Shown here piece after piece: positions 9,756 to 12,155 of a stretch of 34,116 nt of DNA. Position numbers and translations under genes: made by a program. The notes beneath the pieces were generated by a model, which saw nothing but the letters and a program-made list of their open reading frames with translations, searched no databases and was not told where the DNA came from. Within the stretch, counting starts at the first letter, position 1. Each line of letters starts with the position of its first letter. Location: the NCBI GenBank assembly GCA_903852325.1, contig CAINQO010000035.1, positions 1-34,116 of the forward strand, in the 5' to 3' direction. This stretch comes from Candidatus Omnitrophota bacterium. GTDB taxonomy: Bacteria; Omnitrophota; Gorgyraeia; Gygaellales; Profunditerraquicolaceae.

Positions 9756-9778
9756 AAAATATCGCGCAGGAGTAATTG

Positions 9779-9817
9779 AAACTAAGGCCGTTAAGGGGTC
9801 TTAGTTTTTTATTTTTT
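9779..9817 (+). terminator. intrinsic terminator of the ABC-F gene
   Basis: AAACTAAG at 9779-9786 pairs with CTTAGTTT at 9800-9807, with extra CC/GG pairing inside, followed by a T-rich run to 9817. It lies directly before the ECF-type promoter at 9819. Confidence 0.85.
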
Positions 9818-9818
9818 A

Positions 9819-9848
9819 GGGAACTTTTCCGGGCCGTGCCTTGTCTAA
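9819..9848 (+). promoter_or_regulatory. ECF-type promoter 1 (GGGAACTTTT-N14-GTCTAA)
   Basis: GGGAACTTTT at 9819-9828 and GTCTAA at 9843-9848, with a 14-nt gap. The same two boxes with exactly the same gap occur upstream of the sigma gene (10483) and of the Spy-like gene (11562). The motif resembles RpoE-class promoters (GGAACTT ... TCTRA) known from Enterobacteria. It lies 30 nt before the DUF6515 gene. Confidence 0.88.
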
Positions 9849-9878
9849 TAGTAAGAACAGAGAAAAGGAGGGGGCAAG

Positions 9879-10433
9879 ATGGATAAGAAAATTGCGGTAA
9901 AAAGATTAGGGGTGGCCGCGGCGCTTGGGCTGGTATTGGTTTTTCAATCCACCAATGCTTTTGCGCGGGACAGGGATGATGACCGGGGCAGGGAGCACGA
10001 CAGGGGAAGGTCCAGGGAGGTGGTTGTCGTAGGGCACCAGAAGTATGATTACCATAATGGCAGGTTCTACAAGCCGGGGTTATTTTTCTTTAACATTGCC
10101 CTGGGTATTCCGCCTTTTGGCGCGGTGGTGCATTTTCTGCCAGAAGACCACCGGGTCGTCGTGGTCGGCGGATCAACCTACTATTATTATGACAATGTTT
10201 ACTACCGGCCTAACCTGAACGGGGATTATATTGTGGTCCCGTCTCCGGTGGCGCCCGTACCCGCGGTCCAGGGTTTAACCGGCAGAAGGGTAACGGTAAA
10301 TATCCTTAACTCCGACGGCAGCTATACTACGGTCCAGCTGGTCCAGCAAAGGGGCGGATATGTCGGGCCGCAGGGGGAGTTTTACCCGGGCAACCCGACC
10401 ATTGAGCAGTTAAGAACGCTCTATGGGAGGTAA
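9879..10433 (+). CDS. DUF6515-like exported protein
   Basis: Protein of 184 aa with a signal peptide (residues 1-29, cleavage probably after AFA). A stretch rich in Asp, Arg and Gly follows (RDRDDDRGREHDRGRSRE). The mature part contains hydrophobic and Tyr-rich repeats (GSTYYYYDNVYYRP; VHFLPEDHRVVVVGG), the pattern of DUF6515, a family of unknown function in the envelope of diverse bacteria. An excellent Shine-Dalgarno (AAAGGAGGGGG) precedes the ATG. Its own ECF promoter lies at 9819-9848, so it is a predicted target of the sigma factor encoded next door. No terminator is seen before the sigma gene. Confidence 0.78.
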   Translation: MDKKIAVKRLGVAAALGLVLVFQSTNAFARDRDDDRGREHDRGRSREVVVVGHQKYDYHNGRFYKPGLFFFNIALGIPPFGAVVHFLPEDHRVVVVGGSTYYYYDNVYYRPNLNGDYIVVPSPVAPVPAVQGLTGRRVTVNILNSDGSYTTVQLVQQRGGYVGPQGEFYPGNPTIEQLRTLYGR

Positions 10434-10440
10434 GATTTAT

Positions 10441-10468
10441 TTGCTTAGCCGGACATTGGGGATATAAT
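10441..10468 (+). promoter_or_regulatory. housekeeping-type promoter upstream of the ECF sigma gene
   Basis: TTGCTT at 10441-10446 and a perfect TATAAT at 10463-10468 (spacer 16). It precedes the ECF promoter at 10483, giving the sigma gene a basal and an autoregulated promoter in tandem. Confidence 0.55.
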
Positions 10469-10482
10469 AAAAGGAGCATTAA

Positions 10483-10512
10483 GGGAACTTTTTACCCGTA
10501 AACCCTGTCTAA
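10483..10512 (+). promoter_or_regulatory. ECF-type promoter 2, autoregulatory
   Basis: GGGAACTTTT at 10483-10492 and GTCTAA at 10507-10512, with a 14-nt gap identical to promoters 1 and 3. It ends 15 nt before the ATG of the ECF gene, so the leader is very short. Confidence 0.88.
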
Positions 10513-10527
10513 TTTATTGAGAAGAGA

Positions 10528-11085
10528 ATGAATGACATTGCTCCGGATATCCTGGAACGGTCGGCGGCGGGGAACTTGGATGCCTTTGAGGAGATTTACA
10601 AGGCGACCAGCAGTTTTGTTTACAATGTCGCCCTAAGAGTGACCCGGAACAGCGCGAATGCCGAAGAGGTCACCCAGGATGTGTTTATGAAGATTTACCG
10701 GAACCTGAAGAGTTTCGGGTTCCGTTCAAGCTTTAAGACCTGGGTGTACCGGATCACGGTAAATACGGCGATCAACCATTACCGCAAATCCGGTAAGGAA
10801 GAAAGATCCAGGGTGGATTACGATAATGTAATCGAAACCTTGCCGGATAACCGCCCGGAAACGGCAATCGAGCAAAGCGACAGCCAGGCCCGGTTGAACG
10901 CGTTATTAGACCGGTTAAGCCCGGAACATAAAACTTGTTTGATCCTGCGGGAGATCGAAGGTTTAAGTTACGCAGAGATTGCCGGGGCATTAAATATTCC
11001 GTTGAATACTGTGCGGACCCGCCTGAAGCGGGCGCGCCAGGCGTTGTTGGCGGAGGCAGAAAGGAGACCAGATGAGCCGGTGTAA
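10528..11085 (+). CDS. RpoE-like ECF sigma factor
   Basis: ECF sigma factor of 185 aa, the normal size for the family. Sigma2 covers about residues 22-88 (NAEEVTQDVFMKIY, FKTWVYRITVNTAINHYRK) and sigma4 about 130-180 (LSPEHKTCLILREIEGLSYAEIAGALNIPLNTVRTRLKRA). The gene overlaps the following anti-sigma gene by 14 nt, indicating translational coupling and fixed stoichiometry. It is preceded by a housekeeping-type promoter and by the shared ECF motif, so autoregulation is expected. The ribosome binding site is weak (GAGAAGAG). I infer that this protein recognises GGGAACTTTT-N14-GTCTAA because the three copies flank its own locus. Confidence 0.93.
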   Translation: MNDIAPDILERSAAGNLDAFEEIYKATSSFVYNVALRVTRNSANAEEVTQDVFMKIYRNLKSFGFRSSFKTWVYRITVNTAINHYRKSGKEERSRVDYDNVIETLPDNRPETAIEQSDSQARLNALLDRLSPEHKTCLILREIEGLSYAEIAGALNIPLNTVRTRLKRARQALLAEAERRPDEPV

Positions 11086-11560
11086 AGAAATCCAGGATCT
11101 ACTTCAAGCCGAATATTTTGACCGGGAAAGCGGCCCGAAAGAAGAACAGTCGGTTCAGGAACACCTGAAACAGTGTTCTGCCTGCGGCACATTGGAAAAA
11201 AAACTGCAAGCCCAGCGCCTGCTTTTTCAGGGGGCAAAACCAAAGCCGGTGCCCGCGCATTTATGGGGGAATATCCGCGACGCGATTATCGCTCAGCGTT
11301 TGGAGGAGGAAACCCCGGTTCCCGGTATTCTTGAGCGCTTGAAGAATCTGGTCTTCCTGCGCCGTCCGGCGATGGTCTTGGCTGCCTCTGTTTTTTCAGT
11401 AGTGTTAGTCGTCGCGGCGTTGGTCAACGCGAACCTGCAAAATCAGTCCGCCTTAAGGAAACTGTCTGCCGCAGAAGGGATTGCCGGCTATAGTTTAAGC
11501 GCTAAAAACGGATACACGATCGATGACCTGGGAACAGGGATCGAGGAATATTTCTTATAA
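11072..11560 (+). CDS. membrane anti-sigma factor with zinc-finger domain
   Basis: Protein of 162 aa. The N-terminal cytoplasmic domain has the ZAS motif H31-x3-C35-x2-C38 plus C4, as in zf-HC2 anti-sigma factors. One membrane segment lies at about 99-121 and a short periplasmic tail of about 40 residues follows. It should hold the ECF sigma at the membrane until an envelope signal triggers release, by analogy with ChrR/RseA-type regulators; no separate protease site can be read. The start overlaps the sigma gene by 14 nt. The next ECF promoter begins 2 nt after its stop codon. Confidence 0.85.
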   Translation: MSRCKEIQDLLQAEYFDRESGPKEEQSVQEHLKQCSACGTLEKKLQAQRLLFQGAKPKPVPAHLWGNIRDAIIAQRLEEETPVPGILERLKNLVFLRRPAMVLAASVFSVVLVVAALVNANLQNQSALRKLSAAEGIAGYSLSAKNGYTIDDLGTGIEEYFL

Positions 11561-11561
11561 A

Positions 11562-11591
11562 GGGAACTTTTTGCGTTAATTGCCGGTCTAA
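11562..11591 (+). promoter_or_regulatory. ECF-type promoter 3 (Spy-like gene)
   Basis: GGGAACTTTT at 11562-11571 and GTCTAA at 11586-11591, again with exactly 14 nt between the boxes. It starts 2 nt after the anti-sigma stop codon and ends 23 nt before the ATG at 11615. Confidence 0.88.
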
Positions 11592-11614
11592 GTTAGTGAA
11601 AGGGGGAATTGGAT

Positions 11615-12097
11615 ATGAGAAAAATGAGATTAGCGGTGATTGGTTTAGTGGTGTCCCTGCTGACGGTCGGTTCCGTATATGCCCAGGAGCAAAATGCGGG
11701 TAAGCCGGATGCGGGTAAAGCAAGGGAGGGGATCTATAAGGAGCTGAATTTGACTCCCGAACAGCAGCAAAAATTGGAAGCCAACCGTAAGGCGCAGCGG
11801 GAAAAAATGTCGGAACTGCGTACGGGGATGATGGCGAAAGAGAAAGAGATGCAGCAAGCCGTAATAAGCTCAAGCCGGACAAGTGTCGAGCAGTTGGCCA
11901 ATGAGATCAAAGGTTTGCAGGCACAGCTGATCGATCAGCGGGTAAACGGGATCTTTGCGGTAAAAGAGATCCTTACTCCCGAACAGTTTGCCAAGCTGAA
12001 TCAAATTATGGAAAAACGCAAGGAACAAATGAAGGGGCGTTTCCAGGATCTGCGGCAACAGCACAGAGGAGCGGCGGCCGGTCCGGAAAATAAATAA
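11615..12097 (+). CDS. Spy/CpxP-like periplasmic protein
   Basis: Exported protein of 160 aa. The signal peptide covers residues 1-23 (cleavage after VYA). The mature part is almost entirely helical and charged, with two LTxxQ-type motifs, LTPEQ at 46-50 and at 120-124, which define the Spy/CpxP/ZraP superfamily of periplasmic chaperones and stress sensors. Family members prevent aggregation or modulate sensor kinases. The ATG at 11615 follows AAAGGGGGAA; a TTG two codons upstream is less likely. Its ECF promoter makes it a predicted output of the envelope-stress response, and it could also feed back on the anti-sigma factor, which is speculation. Confidence 0.83.
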   Translation: MRKMRLAVIGLVVSLLTVGSVYAQEQNAGKPDAGKAREGIYKELNLTPEQQQKLEANRKAQREKMSELRTGMMAKEKEMQQAVISSSRTSVEQLANEIKGLQAQLIDQRVNGIFAVKEILTPEQFAKLNQIMEKRKEQMKGRFQDLRQQHRGAAAGPENK

Positions 12098-12123: not shown

Positions 12124-12155
12124 AAAACCCGTGCTTTAAAAGGCACGGGTTTTTT
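12124..12155 (+). terminator. strong intrinsic terminator, possibly bidirectional
   Basis: AAACCCGTGC and GCACGGGTTT form a perfect stem around an 8-nt loop, followed by a T-run to 12155 and preceded by an A-run. It can serve the Spy-like gene and, on the other strand, the MFS gene that ends at 12173. Confidence 0.88.

Follow-up and report, generated by a model that had tools for sequence, protein, structure and literature searches.

Which genes are served by the extracytoplasmic function (ECF) sigma factor encoded on a contig of Candidatus Omnitrophota bacterium, and from which promoters? The stretch of DNA analyzed (34,116 nt, positions 1–34,116 of contig CAINQO010000035.1, assembly GCA_903852325.1; hereafter, the window) contains a group of genes encoding a DUF6515 protein, the ECF sigma factor, an anti-sigma factor and a Spy-like protein (Table 1). 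The analysis indicates that this locus is very probably the core of an Omnitrophota envelope-stress regulon of the sigma-E type that recurs in the phylum. At the sequence level, this assignment is carried by the conservation of the promoters, their co-occurrence with the sigma gene, the identities of the target genes, the operon structure and the anatomy of the anti-sigma factor. From these features we infer that the sigma factor reads the promoters described below.

Exactly three matches to the pattern GGGAACTTTT-N14-GTCTAA were found in the window, all of them on the + strand, namely ahead of the DUF6515 gene, the sigma gene and the Spy-like gene. The last base of GTCTAA is separated by 30, 15 and 24 nt, respectively, from the ATG codon of the gene, and by 17 nt from an upstream TTG in the case of the Spy-like gene. 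The window contains no further box pairs even with the gap relaxed to N12–16, and 100 dinucleotide shuffles of the window gave no matches to the motif. Thus, the three identical boxes with a fixed 14-nt gap at 15–30 nt from the starts, as well as the lack of a fourth copy in the window, were confirmed as they had been described in the sequence-only reading. The spacers of the three sites have no sequence relation to one another, and therefore the sites did not arise by recent copying of one promoter.

Table 1. Predicted features of the locus (positions in the window; profile scores are given against their cut-offs)
Feature	Position	Strand	Basis and remarks
Terminator-like hairpin with T-run, ends the upstream ABC-F gene and sets the module apart	9778..9808	+	Pattern match; not above shuffle background alone
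Predicted ECF promoter 1, DUF6515 gene	9819..9848	+	GGGAACTTTT-N14-GTCTAA; position kept in relatives
DUF6515 protein, 184 aa, signal-like N-terminal helix, beta-rich, putative envelope output	9879..10433	+	PF20125, 48 bits vs 24.9; AlphaFold2 model
Predicted ECF promoter 2, putatively autoregulatory, sigma and anti-sigma genes	10483..10512	+	Conserved ahead of orthologs
ECF sigma factor, 185 aa	10528..11085	+	TIGR02937, 116.4 bits vs 42.9
Membrane-anchored class I anti-sigma factor, 162 aa	11072..11560	+	PF13490 zf-HC2, 29.6 bits vs 22.2
Coding sequence of the anti-sigma C-terminal tail GTGIEEYFL (conserved, periplasmic)	11531..11557	+	Ortholog alignment
Predicted ECF promoter 3, Spy-like gene	11562..11591	+	Starts 1 nt past the anti-sigma stop codon; conserved
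Spy/CpxP-like periplasmic chaperone, signal-peptide-like start	11616..12097	+	PF07813 LTXXQ, 42.4 bits vs 24.3; PF13801, 43 vs 29.2
Terminator-like hairpin with T-run, closes the module	12124..12153	+	Pattern match only

The source genome, a metagenome-assembled genome (MAG) of 1.63 Mb in 123 contigs with a completeness of 94.6%, was searched with mismatches allowed and with the reversed pattern as a control. Beyond the window, one exact site (C81:1099-1127(-)) and one single-mismatch site (C40:7321-7349(+)) were found. Matches with two mismatches were rejected as sites because their number (12, versus 13 for the reversed control) corresponded to background. In a sample of 384 Omnitrophota genomes, in which a sigma homolog was counted at E ≤ 1e-30, the strict motif gave 79 matches and the reversed pattern gave 1. 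The motif was present in 46 of the 110 genomes with a sigma homolog versus 9 of the 274 without one (Fisher p about 3e-20, the genomes being treated as independent despite their kinship). Among the 58 closest relatives, it was found in 10 of 11 sigma-positive and 3 of 47 sigma-negative genomes, with kinship likewise ignored. The Omnitrophota-type ortholog loci were fetched by protein similarity alone, and all 28 of them carry a site with at most one mismatch, either before the sigma gene or before a DUF6515 gene that immediately precedes it; for the whole set of ortholog loci, a site was located ahead of the sigma gene in 62 of 63 (some genomes counted twice). The ortholog loci and the co-occurrence support the earlier prediction that the motif is the recognition site of the sigma factor and that the factor may regulate its own gene.

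Two observations had been named in the sequence-only reading as speaking against a promoter, namely a motif equally common inside genes and its absence beside orthologous sigma genes. Neither was made: an open reading frame (ORF) of at least 100 aa starts no more than 60 nt away from 58 of 70 strict sites, compared with 164 of 700 random positions, and the motif accompanies the orthologous sigma genes as stated above. The median leader from the -10 box to the start codon is 21 nt. A set of 114 distinct sites, partly drawn by sigma similarity, was then grouped by downstream gene, and the clusters comprised sigma (36), Spy (24), DUF6515 (16), TolC (3) and smaller ones. The commonest spacing (16 nt from GGAACTT to GTC) occurs in 90 of these sites; a T directly precedes GTCTAA in 89% of the 90, although this position was not fixed by the search pattern. 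The same 90 sites are A/T-rich upstream of the -35 box and show purines 7–11 nt past the -10 box, which would coincide with the expected start site and the Shine-Dalgarno region. Signal-like N-termini were found in 41 of 52 non-sigma targets against a background of 47% (a crude test); a test for enrichment of signal-peptide genes had been proposed as a check. The two envelope-protein outputs suggested by the window are supported, and DUF6515 is a recurrent member of the predicted regulon. Small RNA promoters were considered for the sites without an ORF and were rejected: there was no Rfam match, and in L108, L154, L155 and L181 starts resembling those of coding sequences were seen, either where the contig ends or farther downstream.

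The boxes belong to the RpoE promoter type, with the -35 element GGAACTT(TT), a GTCNAA-like -10 element and about 16 nt between GGAACTT and GTC. The resemblance to RpoE-class promoters had been noted from the window, and the boxes fit the published pair GGAACTTTT/GTCAAA. The accompanying claim that the core and the T-run are specific to this lineage does not hold, since GGAACTTTT is the sigma-E -35 motif in Salmonella and E. coli, where it is combined with GTCAAA as the -10 box (PMC1804206), and GTCTAA is included in the meningococcal -10 motif CGTCTAAH (PMC2893595). As far as tested, it is the set of targets that is particular to Omnitrophota.

The sigma factor itself was assigned to the ECF factors (group 4), as the Sigma70_r2 and Sigma70_r4_2 domains exceeded their cut-offs and only regions 2 and 4 are present. 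Its PDB relatives are AlgU/SigH (6in7), SigE and RpoE (1or7). The score for the RpoE equivalog model TIGR02939 was 102.8 bits with a cut-off of 236.15, so that the protein appears to resemble RpoE in its working but is not classed as an RpoE equivalog. Alignment with AlgU (6in7) revealed close similarity both in region 2 (FKTWVYRITVNTAINH versus FYTWLYRIAINTAKNH) and in the recognition helix of region 4 (NTVRTRLKRARQAL versus GTVRSRIFRAREAI), which is consistent with the use of RpoE-type promoters. The residues in contact with the promoter are taken to be those usual for the family.

The regulon had been called self-contained, and this description fails because two sites lie on other contigs, before a TolC-MacA-MacB operon and an ATP-binding cassette (ABC) permease gene. 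The C40 site is located 25 nt ahead of a TolC-like gene, which is followed by MacA-like and MacB-like genes. The operon encodes the components of a MacAB-TolC tripartite exporter, namely an OEP protein, a HlyD-type adaptor and a protein with ABC_tran, MacB_PCD and FtsX domains, the last scoring 530 bits and thus below the MacB equivalog cut-off (966). Close TolC orthologs were preceded by a site at a distance of up to 500 nt in 11 of 22 cases from sigma-positive genomes, compared with 0 of 19 equally close orthologs from sigma-negative genomes (p = 2e-4). In the sigma-negative congener G013, the gene neighborhood is kept and TolC is 63% identical, and the aligned intergenic sequence contains no -35 box. 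In at least six loci (L018, L019, L025, L027, L028 and L233), tolC follows the Spy gene in the sigma operon, and macA and macB likewise follow where the locus extends far enough. The C81 site (L216:1099-1127(-)) sits between two sugar-type ABC permease genes, and the same gap in the congener G022 (L217:3936-3964(-)) retains both boxes while the flanks have diverged. Thus, the predicted regulon includes at least five sites in the source genome, with the exporter as a conserved putative member. Two side observations concern these targets. In L224 (4271-4299) and L225 (4819-4847), from the genomes G240 and G398, a small gene lies between the ECF site and tolC-macAB, and its product is MazE/AbrB-like in L225. 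In G022, a gene for a glycosyl-hydrolase-like protein follows the site in the permease gap; the second sugar-type permease gene would be the one driven by the envelope-stress sigma factor.

The Spy-like protein belongs to the Spy/CpxP (LTXXQ) family. Its best PDB match is the E. coli Spy structure 3oeo (E = 0.0019), and its score for the Spy equivalog model (NCBIfam PRK10455) was 31.6 bits, below the cut-off of 174. The AlphaFold2 model of the DUF6515 protein (mean pLDDT 78, pTM 0.46) had no fold match in the PDB at E ≤ 0.001, and no paper on the function of DUF6515 was found in the literature search. Conservation of this protein runs past the Pfam match (residues 48–133) into a C-terminal block GPQGEFYP..P.VEQL..LYGK.

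The anti-sigma gene starts 14 nt before the end of the sigma gene. The protein was classified as a zinc-binding class I anti-sigma factor, as it contains a zf-HC2 domain with the H-x3-C-x2-C motif and its gene lies beside the ECF gene; the motif is present in 53 of 53 distinct complete orthologs. It probably binds and inhibits the neighboring sigma factor. The AlphaFold2 model consists of the anti-sigma domain (ASD) helices, a further short helix and a single long helix containing the membrane span, followed by a low-confidence disordered stretch with a short helix at the extreme end. Thus, the anti-sigma factor is predicted to have no folded periplasmic sensor domain; a structure search with this fold gave no useful match. 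The C-terminus is conserved across orthologs in the phylum as GTxIExYFL, with hydrophobic residues at the last two positions in 49 of 53 orthologs and Glu at C-4 in 44 of 53. The mean entropy was 1.9 bits for the last 7 positions versus 3.4 bits for the preceding 33 (ungapped, crude estimate). This tail is absent from a sister ECF system in Omnitrophota, described below, and from Bacteroidota relatives.

With regard to the release of the sigma factor, the genome encodes an RseP-like M50 site-2 protease (360 aa; TIGR00054, 155.4 bits vs a cut-off of 147.55) and a CtpA-like S41 protease with a PDZ domain. No DegS/HtrA-type enzyme was found, because no Trypsin_2 domain was matched in the genome (12 of 14 control genomes have one), although the absence of HtrA is not certain at the MAG completeness given above. 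Thus, of the DegS plus RseP proteolysis scheme, the M50 enzyme for site 2 is present and an HtrA-type enzyme for site 1 was not found. In other systems, S41 proteases of the Prc/Tsp type are site-1 proteases that act ahead of RseP (PMC7593790; PMC10202637). A hydrophobic, conserved periplasmic C-terminus would, hypothetically, be the expected ligand of an S41 enzyme or a PDZ domain. We tentatively suggest, while regarding it as somewhat less than probable, that GTxIExYFL serves as the binding site of a tail-specific PDZ protease, after which the RseP-like M50 enzyme would cleave within the membrane, possibly with Spy shielding the tail. More doubtful is a version in which, the anti-sigma factor having no sensor domain, the tail itself would be the sensed element, that is, a degron for the S41/CtpA-like PDZ protease that is shielded by free Spy. 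Misfolded proteins would then titrate Spy, expose the tail and thereby initiate site-1 proteolysis. If this were true, the signal activating site-1 proteolysis and the target of that proteolysis would be one single chain. The conserved tail would offer a specific handle on the DegS-free release of such factors.

All these characteristics allow us to propose the following circuit. The anti-sigma factor of the same operon would retain the ECF sigma factor at the inner membrane, and envelope damage, the presumed stimulus, would lead to regulated proteolysis of the anti-sigma factor, likewise presumed, and to the release of sigma. The freed factor would drive its own operon, giving positive feedback with the co-produced anti-sigma factor as a brake, and would switch on the Spy-like chaperone and the secreted DUF6515 protein, as well as the TolC-MacA-MacB export operon and the ABC permease gene elsewhere in the genome. 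All these outputs would start from GGGAACTTTT-N14-GTCTAA promoters with short leaders. Several findings weigh against such an envelope-stress regulon. The strict motif is missing in 64 of the 110 sigma-positive genomes, and relaxed variants explain many of these cases but were not shown for all of them. Nine sigma-negative genomes carry the strict motif, which means that boxes of this type can also serve other ECF factors. In the source genome, the site before the C40 TolC gene has one mismatch (GGGAACTATT), and no site was found in the 500 nt upstream of half of the TolC orthologs from sigma-positive genomes, some of these genes being located in the sigma operon. The tail-protease step is proposed from conservation and gene presence.

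Those nine genomes, together with further sigma-70-family genes of the source genome that match the ECF model, are also what could be expected if another ECF factor of the genome, and not the sigma factor of the locus, acted at the sites. This is very unlikely, since the motif co-varies with the locus sigma across genomes and precedes the sigma gene in nearly all ortholog loci, and a sister sigma factor with similar neighbors has a different -35 box, GGGAATAAA. A different role for the Spy-like protein was also considered, in which it would be a sensor, a CnrX-like metal-binding protein signaling to the anti-sigma factor, and the regulon would serve metal resistance with an efflux pump. The protein does match the Pfam family Metal_resist (43 bits vs 29.2), the PDB matches of the sigma factor include CnrH as a distant one (4cxf, E 1.6e-7), and the parts list of ECF sigma factor, small membrane anti-sigma factor, Spy-fold periplasmic protein and tripartite pump is that of cnrYXH-cnrCBA of Cupriavidus. 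However, the Spy-like protein of the window contains a single His, near its C-terminus, and not the His-rich metal site of the CnrX type; its gene is preceded by a separate promoter, and the protein begins with a signal-peptide-like stretch; its best PDB match is E. coli Spy; and the pump is of the ABC-type MacB kind and not a metal pump of the resistance-nodulation-division type. A metal-sensing system is therefore unlikely.

The conservation of the tail could also have its origin in the DNA, given that the anti-sigma stop codon and the -35 box of the Spy promoter are 1 nt apart in the window and that the tail codons are A/T-rich and resemble an UP element, in which case GTxIExYFL would be kept by the promoter behind the stop codon and not by protein function. 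The 25 orthologs without a promoter at this place have, however, a tail that is as conserved as or more conserved than that in the 28 with one (column entropies of 0.72, 0.72 and 1.11 bits for Y, F and L in the promoter-less set). Because of this, DNA constraint does not explain the tail, and we regard it as very unlikely.

An autoregulated envelope-stress regulon of an ECF and an anti-sigma factor with RpoE-type promoters is already known as a kind. Like E. coli sigma-E/RseA (ECF02), the Omnitrophota system combines an ECF sigma factor and a membrane-anchored anti-sigma factor in one operon with autoregulation, the -35 box GGAACTTTT with a similar -10 box (PMC1804206) and an RseP-like site-2 protease. 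It differs in a sigma factor below the RpoE equivalog cut-off, a zinc-finger anti-sigma factor without an RseA-like folded periplasmic domain, the lack of a detected DegS/HtrA-type protease and the outputs Spy, DUF6515 and MacAB-TolC. The anti-sigma factor shares H-x3-C-x2-C and the ASD helices followed by one transmembrane helix with class I anti-sigma factors (ASDI) such as RsiW (PMC7406223), but instead of a folded extracytoplasmic domain it is predicted to carry the phylum-conserved hydrophobic tail. The output logic is similar to that of E. coli BaeSR, whose BaeR regulon contains spy, mdtABC and tolC (PMC2731931), that is, spy and a TolC-dependent tripartite pump. The Omnitrophota system uses an ECF sigma/anti-sigma pair and not a histidine kinase and response regulator, and its pump is the ABC-type MacAB, which in enteric bacteria is controlled by PhoPQ (PMC5985334). 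By analogy, the circuit may be regarded as a sigma-factor counterpart of the BaeSR response, which suggests that the Spy-plus-TolC-pump response, under two-component control in E. coli, is under the control of an ECF factor in Omnitrophota. Clusters in Bacteroidota and Neomarinimicrobiota (L033-L035, L038 and L058) likewise contain a sigma gene with an anti-sigma match and/or a Spy homolog downstream of it, but none of them has the GGAACTT/GTCTAA motif and their anti-sigma matches have no YFL tail.

The Omnitrophota version, with Spy, DUF6515 and MacAB-TolC as outputs and a sensorless anti-sigma factor that bears the tail, was not found in the literature searched, with most subscription journals lying outside the search; the same search revealed no paper describing an ECF and LTXXQ module of this kind and none on Omnitrophota sigma factors. 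Members of this phylum are almost entirely uncultured. The proposed circuit, described at the sequence level and open to testing, provides a promoter code, a regulator and conserved outputs, among them an exporter preceded by the promoter solely in genomes with the sigma gene.

The sister ECF system was found in L137, L138, L139, L140 and L141 (genomes G039, G048, G049, G024 and G004), with a divergent sigma factor (34–39% identical) at about position 1470. A promoter of its own, GGGAATAAA ... CGTCTAAT, is conserved in this system, and the order of outputs in G004 and G024 is the same, namely anti-sigma, Spy and TolC(-MacAB). It looks as though sister regulators with a changed -35 box serve the same outputs, even within one genus. 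Another group of five sites (L153, L156, L192, L194 and L195), with a spacer one base shorter, precedes a secreted-looking family of ~470 aa (..VTVYNQNFALIKDQR..) in genomes without a close sigma ortholog; these sites perhaps serve another ECF factor with nearly the same boxes. In L154 and L155, a long leader separates the site from the start codon; about 200 nt past the site, two species belonging to one family share similar leader sequence (..AATAATAAGGATAC..GTCTGCTAGGCCGCAG..AATTCGCAC..), which had no Rfam match. The window itself contains a second sigma-70-family domain at 244-726 (TIGR02937, 91.6 bits, in a frame of 269 aa). Finally, an Omnitrophota-type sigma factor (56–57% identical), anti-sigma factor and promoter were found on the contigs L009 and L011, whose records assign them to MAGs of Nitrospira sp. 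and Marinifilum sp. and which are probably mis-binned.

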